Below, in pieces: positions 9,773 through 54,358 of a stretch of DNA of 54,358 nucleotides. The position numbers and the translations under genes were made by a program. Position 1 is the stretch's first letter. Every line of letters begins with the position of its first letter. The stretch spans positions 1 to 54,358 of the forward strand of contig SGZV01000009.1 of NCBI GenBank assembly GCA_004321805.1, in the 5' to 3' direction. The notes below the pieces were generated by a model. That model searched no databases, was not told the origin of the DNA, and saw nothing but the letters and a program-made list of their open reading frames with translations. This DNA comes from an alpha proteobacterium HIMB59 (GTDB taxonomy: Bacteria > Pseudomonadota > Alphaproteobacteria > HIMB59).

Positions 9773-9934
9773 ATGAGTAATTTTGATTGTGAAGTTTGTA
9801 ATAAAAAGATTAAAGATCCTTTGTATTGGGCTGATCCCAAATTTTATGACATTCCAAAAAAAATTTATTTTTGTGATGCAAAATGCTCCCTAAAATATTA
9901 CGAAAAAATTAAAAAATTATACAAAAATCCCTAA
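9773..9934 (+). CDS. 53-aa zinc-ribbon protein
   Basis: A short frame with four cysteines placed as a metal site: Cys6 and Cys9 (CEVC) and Cys34 and Cys38 (CDAKC). The central YWADPKFYDIPKKIYFCD resembles TRASH/YHS-like or other short treble-clef zinc fingers, and the C-terminus is basic (KYYEKIKKLYKNP). It follows the phosphatase stop by 6 bases, so it is probably expressed with it. Function unknown: it could be a small regulator or a metal chaperone. The clean cysteine spacing makes a chance frame unlikely. Confidence 0.65.
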   Translation: MSNFDCEVCNKKIKDPLYWADPKFYDIPKKIYFCDAKCSLKYYEKIKKLYKNP

Positions 9935-9989
9935 TTTACTTGATTTAAGCTATGTCGAAATTGCACAGCTGATGGAGATTAATGGCAAT

Positions 9990-10017
9990 TTGACTATCTA
10001 GAAAATATTAGTATAAA
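9990..10017 (+). promoter_or_regulatory. Near-consensus sigma-70 promoter ahead of a small-RNA candidate
   Basis: TTGACT (9990-9995) and TATAAA (10012-10017) are separated by 16 bases, predicting transcription start near 10024. This is the best -35/-10 pair I noticed in the window. The start falls just before the stem-loop at 10030-10084, and no protein start follows for more than 110 bases. Confidence 0.65.
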
Positions 10018-10023
10018 TCCTTA

Positions 10024-10086
10024 ATTCTTAAAACTAGCTCCACCTTATTCCTATCCTTACTTATATTCCTCCGGGGCTAGTTTTTT
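10024..10086 (+). ncRNA. Candidate small RNA: 12-bp stem, G-free loop with CCUCC, U-tract
   Basis: The predicted transcript is about 63 nt. AAAACTAGCTCC (10030-10041) pairs with GGGGCTAGTTTT (10073-10084), 12 bp with one G-U, and the T-run to 10086 completes an intrinsic terminator. The 31-nt loop (10042-10072) contains only A, C and T and ends in TTCCTCC, complementary to Shine-Dalgarno sequences. Alphaproteobacterial anti-Shine-Dalgarno small RNAs (the cuckoo/CcsR type) also expose CU-rich CCUCC loops; that comparison is by architecture only. Alternative: simply a large-loop terminator for the phosphatase transcript, though the promoter just upstream argues otherwise. Confidence 0.5.
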
Positions 10087-10139
10087 GATATTTTTCTTTC
10101 GTTTGTTTTTCATTTATGTAGTTTTAAATAATCTTGTCT

Positions 10140-54053: not shown

Positions 54054-54144
54054 AATTTTACCTCTTTCTAATGACATAATTGCGCTTGCTGAACCTTTAT
54101 TCTAAGAATATGGTTTTCTTATTATAAAAGTTTCTGGAGGAACT

Positions 54145-54358
54145 ATGAGTAAACCGAATAATTTGGAATCCTTATGGATGCCATTTACACCTAATAAGAC
54201 TTTTAAAAAAGATCCTCGCATTATTGTTGGCGCCAAAGATATGCACTTTATCAGCGATGATAATCGTGAGATTTTAGATGGTACTGCTGGCTTATGGTGT
54301 GTGAATGCTGGTCATGGCAGAAAAAAAATTCAAGAAGCAGTCTCTGAACAACTTGAAA
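54145..54358 (+). CDS. Omega-amino acid:pyruvate aminotransferase, 5' part
   Basis: The first 71 codons of a class III PLP-dependent aminotransferase; the rest lies beyond the right edge. The visible part (ESLWMPFTPNKTFKKDPR, then VGAKDMHFISDDNR, then ILDGTAGLWCVNAGHG) is that of beta-alanine/taurine:pyruvate aminotransferases. It fits catabolism of amino-sulfonates or beta-alanine. The GGAGG ribosome site ends four bases before the ATG. Confidence 0.87.
   Translation, partial: MSKPNNLESLWMPFTPNKTFKKDPRIIVGAKDMHFISDDNREILDGTAGLWCVNAGHGRKKIQEAVSEQLE

Follow-up and report, generated by a model that had tools for sequence, protein, structure and literature searches.

A Single-Hairpin Element with a Constrained Pyrimidine Loop in HIMB59-Type Bacteria Is Very Probably a Regulatory RNA of an Undescribed Family

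Introduction

Does a hairpin with a long pyrimidine-rich loop, lying behind the gene of a small protein in an alphaproteobacterial genome, end a transcript, or is it an RNA in its own right, and what would its loop bind? In the surface ocean, HIMB59-type (AEGEAN-169) bacteria are common; their genomes are small, and to our knowledge their RNA regulation is almost undescribed. The window analysed here is the whole stretch of 54,358 nucleotides on which the hairpin was noticed, and its genus is taken to be HIMB59 (AEGEAN-169). A first-pass annotation read the hairpin as a candidate small RNA with its own promoter that could silence genes led by a Shine-Dalgarno (SD) sequence. It is very probable that the hairpin locus encodes a real regulatory RNA, one whose family is so far undescribed. 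What the loop does is graded more cautiously below.

The Hairpin in the Window

Direct reading of the sequence gives a stem of 12 pairs, one of them G-U, between a 5' arm at 10030-10041 (AAAACTAGCTCC) and a 3' arm at 10073-10084 (GGGGCTAGTTTT). The arms enclose a 31-nt loop at 10042-10072 (ACCTTATTCCTATCCTTACTTATATTCCTCC), which contains no G and ends in TTCCTCC. A T-rich tail at 10081-10095 forms a weak end of the intrinsic-terminator type. Upstream, TTGACT (9990-9995) is followed by a 16-nt spacer and TATAAA (10012-10017), which predicts a start near 10024. The promoter hexamers, stem, G-free loop and T-run of the first-pass annotation are thus all where it placed them. The predicted small RNA covers 10024-10093 of the + strand, about 70 nt, with its ends predicted from the promoter position and the T-rich tail.

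The fold has an energy of -16.9 kcal/mol, and none of 200 dinucleotide shuffles is as stable (z -4.3). A scan for stems of 12 pairs with at most one G-U, a loop of 3-40 nt and at least five G/C returned the hairpin at 10030-10084 as its sole example in the 54-kb window, and the same scan on six shuffled windows gave 0, 0, 0, 2, 0 and 1 stems. In DNA so rich in A+T, promoter hexamers do not stand out on their own; a scan of the window for sigma-70-like sites found fewer than in shuffles, so that the hexamers alone are not beyond chance. It is conservation that sets the feature apart from chance.

Distribution among Genomes

The first-pass annotation had proposed a covariance search. A model derived from an alignment of 28 copies, together with BLASTn, places the hairpin in 43 of the 52 genomes of the genus. 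The nine genomes with no convincing match are each at most 78% complete. In one of them (G007) the contig jumps to transaldolase-like sequence just past the small-protein gene. At this locus (L135, G007:C27) the stop codon of the small protein runs straight into the transaldolase-like coding sequence, which is likely to be an assembly chimera.

The sister family has no hairpin; model matches there (f2 family) are weak, lie within coding genes and are attributed to chance. Among 385 genomes spread over the class, no match was found outside the genus. Viral and non-HIMB59 pattern matches (L125, L126, L086, L102, L106 and L113) have flanks that form no matching stem and are also put down to chance. 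The hairpin RNA is confined to one genus.

Conservation, Covariation and Strand

The hairpin has a mean pairwise identity of 92.4%, compared with 81.7% for the coding block, 70.4% for the 95 nt upstream and 58.3% for the 70 nt downstream. Parsimony on a tree built from the upstream coding block gives 0.93 changes per site in the hairpin, 2.1 in the coding block, 3.68 in the upstream 95 nt and 3.35 in the downstream 70 nt.

All 262 stem cells of the 28-sequence alignment pair, and three pairs have changed on both sides. The addition of the divergent G013 and G024 copies reveals Watson-Crick replacements at stem pairs 1, 4, 9 and 12, and the replacements include A-U to G-C and C-G to U-A. Pairing on the + strand survives 22 of 23 inferred stem events, and the compensatory changes whose absence the first-pass annotation would have counted against an RNA are therefore present.

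The same alignment bears on the strand. Read as the - strand it leaves 31 stem cells unpaired, and as the + strand only one; since the - strand reading breaks so many cells, the RNA element is assigned to the + strand. The first-pass annotation had also considered the other strand, on account of repeated GGA motifs; an RNA read there would be a sponge of the CsrB/RsmZ kind. Several GGA do occur on the reverse strand of the loop, but the broken stem cells make such an RNA highly improbable.

The loop is 27-33 nt long among relatives and is unevenly conserved. UAUUCCUAU, YCYUUA and UUCCUCC are blocks that hardly change across the genomes: the core UAUUCCUAUYCYUUA, with its UUCCUAU, is near-invariant, and UUCCUCC is invariant or nearly so. 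The first three or four bases vary, as does the stretch between UUA and UUCCUCC.

These features can be set against the dull alternative of the first-pass annotation, a plain large-loop terminator, which would here end the small-protein operon that lies upstream. The position after a gene, the strong stem and the T-rich tail all fit such a terminator. However, termination would not need a fixed loop, and this one is conserved above coding DNA; a loop of 27-33 nt, a U run that varies and is weak in many relatives, and a promoter-like architecture between gene and hairpin also speak against it. This reading is disfavoured and appears improbable. The locus is a single-hairpin element of the + strand with an unusually constrained pyrimidine loop and a conserved upstream architecture.

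The Promoter-like Region

The upstream architecture consists of an inverted repeat, a GCAAT box and a -10-like element. The inverted repeat (AGCTATG..GCACAGCT, 9948-9970, no strand assigned) is a probable operator or activator site centred near -65. Its arms have undergone 1.4-1.5 changes per site, the spacer next to them 3.9, and in G015 its pairing is retained despite a changed sequence. A genome-wide search for the repeat matched essentially the RNA locus alone in each genome, and no regulon was found by it. A larger structured RNA that includes the repeat was rejected, as consensus folding backs only a few pairs.

The GCAAT box (9985-9989, + strand) lies a constant 14 nt after the repeat and is the best-conserved promoter element, with 0.4 changes per site. 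The -35-like TTGACT (+ strand) is unconserved, with 3.2 changes per site and TTTAAT, TTTGCT or TATAAG in relatives. The -10-like TATAAA (+ strand) has 2.7 changes per site, and it is A/T-rich and at a fixed distance in most relatives. Between the -10 and the hairpin the rate rises to 7.5. Only five sequences have an indel between the repeat and the -10, whereas 24 have one in the stretch from the -10 to the hairpin. Because the spacing of repeat, GCAAT and -10 is constant in nearly all sequences while the sequence changes fast, the arrangement suggests a DNA-level architecture in which a regulator would bind about 65 bp ahead of the predicted start. The earlier proposal of an own promoter was thus right in kind, but the strict TTGACT/TATAAA pair is not kept in all clades.

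Neighbouring Genes and the 53-aa Protein

The locus is flanked by a phosphatase-like gene, the gene of a four-cysteine protein, and sbcB or an ABC transporter gene. The four-cysteine gene (9773-9934, + strand) encodes an orphan protein of 53 aa, L24e/treble-clef-like, which is found in the same genus only, as is the RNA, and lies directly upstream of the RNA in 43 of 43 RNA-bearing genomes. The downstream gene is sbcB in most genomes and an ABC transporter gene in G013, G015 and G024, and the linkage of RNA and small protein persists across this switch. The RNA is therefore not a leader of sbcB. In clade-A genomes, sbcB starts (e.g., L004 and L005) have TATAAT a few bases ahead of the ATG (GATATAATTTTTTAATATG), which fits a leaderless transcript.

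No family reaches the cut-off for the 53-aa protein; a treble clef (DUF2116, E 0.005) is the best of its weak matches, and a comparison with the sequences of solved structures gave no match. Its AlphaFold model has a pLDDT of 89 and a pTM of 0.66. L24e/RLP24 ribosomal proteins rank highest for this model, weakly, with Foldseek E values of at least 0.3 and VIA-align Z scores of 4-6. An RNA-binding role of the protein is a lead from this modelled fold and no more.

Pairing with Shine-Dalgarno Sequences

The loop core is complementary to AGGAA, AAGGA and GGAGGAA, and an anti-SD role of the RNA is plausible from this complementarity. An SD-like 4-mer occurs at about 22% of gene starts, compared with 7% in a control interval, and the target class of an anti-SD RNA would be limited for this reason. 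At 420 gene starts, the loop forms duplexes no more stable than those of 40 shuffled loops. For the 218 starts that have orthologues in three lineages, the number of conserved strong duplexes likewise stays within the shuffled-loop range. The anti-SD silencing first proposed thus gains from the near-invariance of UUCCUCC, but not from complementarity at gene starts.

The first-pass annotation had singled out GGAGGAA ahead of an aminotransferase gene as a perfect 7-base match. This SD sequence is present at 54136-54142 of the + strand, before the ATG at 54145, and gives one of the best duplexes both in the window and in G029. It is kept in G000, G029 and G038 but gone in G023 and G028, so that it is a lineage-limited candidate and is rejected as a universal target. 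Long loop complements such as GGAGGAATAGGTAAAG in clade-A genomes were also set aside, as they lie within a reading frame and not at a start. Hfq (PF17209) was found in none of 70 genomes of the order; the control genomes, Caulobacter included, were positive.

One gene leader is described separately. About 40 nt before an hslV-like gene (L294, - strand, with its start at reverse-strand index ~10037, in G029) are near-identical in three lineages. They can fold as CCUAUA-UU-UAUAGG over the SD sequence, which suggests an RNA thermometer, and their AUAGGAAUA matches the invariant loop core by complementarity over 9 bases.

The target tests also bear on a hairpin that binds protein. The loop would then be recognised by an RNA-binding protein, for which S1 of the ribosome, Rho and the L24e-like neighbour are examples; the RNA would sequester the protein or mark a 3' end, and SD complementarity would be incidental. 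About 30 near-invariant loop nucleotides exceed what seed pairing with an mRNA usually needs, target enrichment over shuffled loops was not seen, and the adjacent orphan protein combines an L24e-like predicted fold with a matching distribution. However, the match to that fold is weak, and the two best-kept loop blocks are those complementary to SD-like purines. Protein binding is possible, although it is considered less likely than pairing. Antisense pairing and protein binding are both in play for the loop, and a protein-bound loop would be conserved for other reasons.

A Second RNA-like Locus

A search for complements of the loop led to a second conserved intergenic locus (G000:C24:17183-17266, L183 and L230; G029:C1:978726-978809, L179 and L227). 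It is present in 33 of the 52 genomes, in varied neighbourhoods near a pcm-like gene, and has no Rfam match. Its G/A strand reads ACCUA-GAGGA-UAGGU-UUAAGGAUGGAGGUUAAAAAGAUGAAGCCACCAAAG, with an SD-like GGAGG ahead of a possible mini-ORF (MKPPK) and with flanking hairpins. Synonymous variation, which would have pointed to coding, is lacking in the mini-ORF. Weak signs favour the G/A strand as the RNA strand; read on the other strand, the locus carries a C/U motif similar to that of the loop and would be a sibling.

In most genomes the loop and the second locus pair at -27 to -32.5 kcal/mol; in G031 and G021 the values are -20.0 to -23.8 kcal/mol. In four representatives the pairing beats composition-matched controls, as only 1-15 of 1000 shuffled loops and 0-2 of 1000 shuffled partners do as well. 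The second locus is a moderate lead as a partner of the loop.

A stronger claim is that the second locus (GAGGAUAGGUUUAAGGAUGGAGG) is the main partner, as sponge or target, or, if its other strand is the RNA, a sibling that shares the C/U motif. In several lineages about 18-20 of 20 nt are paired, a U-A pair has changed to A-U on both sides between clades, few shuffled loops reach this pairing, and the sponge CrfA of SisA-D is a precedent (PMC12559287). This claim is doubtful, as the second locus is missing from G028, G002 and other genomes in which the loop has changed little or not at all, and the complementarity decays in G021 and G031. Moreover, 8 of 17768 unrelated windows of the G029 genome (self matches excluded) pair with the loop equally well, and in most genomes the second locus leaves UUCCUCC uncovered.

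Comparison with Known RNA Families

At the gathering threshold, Rfam 15 has no match in the window, and permissive thresholds yield only chance-level matches at the RNA locus. Cuckoo/CcsR RNAs, whose members include SmelA075, SmelA099 and CcsR1-4, have several hairpins with the loop motif CCUCCUCCC and are associated with a DUF1127 protein gene (PMC3927594, PMC10253847). The present RNA resembles them in a hairpin loop that exposes CCUCC and in a small protein gene directly upstream, which recalls ccaF1 upstream of the CcsR RNAs. In contrast, it has one hairpin and not three or four, its loop is three times longer and carries UUCCUCC only, without CCUCCUCCC, and its neighbour is a treble-clef-like protein with four cysteines and no DUF1127 match. 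Membership of the cuckoo/CcsR type, which the first-pass annotation had cited as a parallel, is not supported by these features.

The alphaR8 small RNAs, SisA-D of Caulobacter, have the sponge CrfA (PMC12559287). They share with the present RNA an alphaproteobacterial origin and an anti-SD stretch, UUCCUCC, that is left unpaired. CrfA has a parallel, in part of the genus, in the G/A-rich, conserved, RNA-like locus complementary to the loop. However, the alphaR8 10-mer UUUCCUCCCU is absent, and the loop reads AUUCCUCCGG, with seven contiguous positions in common. The 10-mer of alphaR8 lies between a weak hairpin and the terminator, whereas the motif here lies inside the loop of the terminator-like hairpin. 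The usual linkage of alphaR8 to N-formylglutamate amidohydrolase is also lacking, as no FGase gene is beside the RNA, and the HIMB59-order genomes are those in which Hfq was not found. By the features tested, the RNA belongs to neither cuckoo/CcsR nor alphaR8.

RepG of Helicobacter pylori, an organism that lacks Hfq, binds mRNA through the C/U-rich loop of its terminator hairpin and targets a homopolymeric G repeat. The present RNA is like it in the C/U-rich loop of a terminator-like hairpin and in an organism without detected Hfq, and differs in its unrelated lineage and sequence. By analogy, it perhaps works like the alphaR8/Sis or RepG RNAs.

Proposed Function and Significance

A short stand-alone regulatory RNA with its own promoter, whose loop pairs with purine-rich sites without Hfq, is held to be the best explanation, with a little better than an even chance. 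A promoter of its own, probably controlled by a DNA-binding regulator, would drive an RNA of about 70 nt, whose terminator-like stem would present 27-33 unpaired nt of C, U and A. The loop could then pair with purine-rich sequences, for example in the SD region of an mRNA or in a different small RNA, and so repress or titrate the RNAs that it binds. The adjacent L24e-like zinc-finger protein is a possible helper. A fuller version, in which the invariant 30-nt pyrimidine loop, an L24e-like zinc-finger chaperone and, in part of the genus, a near-perfect antisense second RNA form a genus-specific riboregulatory module that does without Hfq, is rather unlikely as a whole.

A conserved riboregulator in a lineage without detected Hfq would be a clean case for Hfq-free action of small RNAs. 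The hairpin also gives a precise sequence to seek in marine metatranscriptomes.
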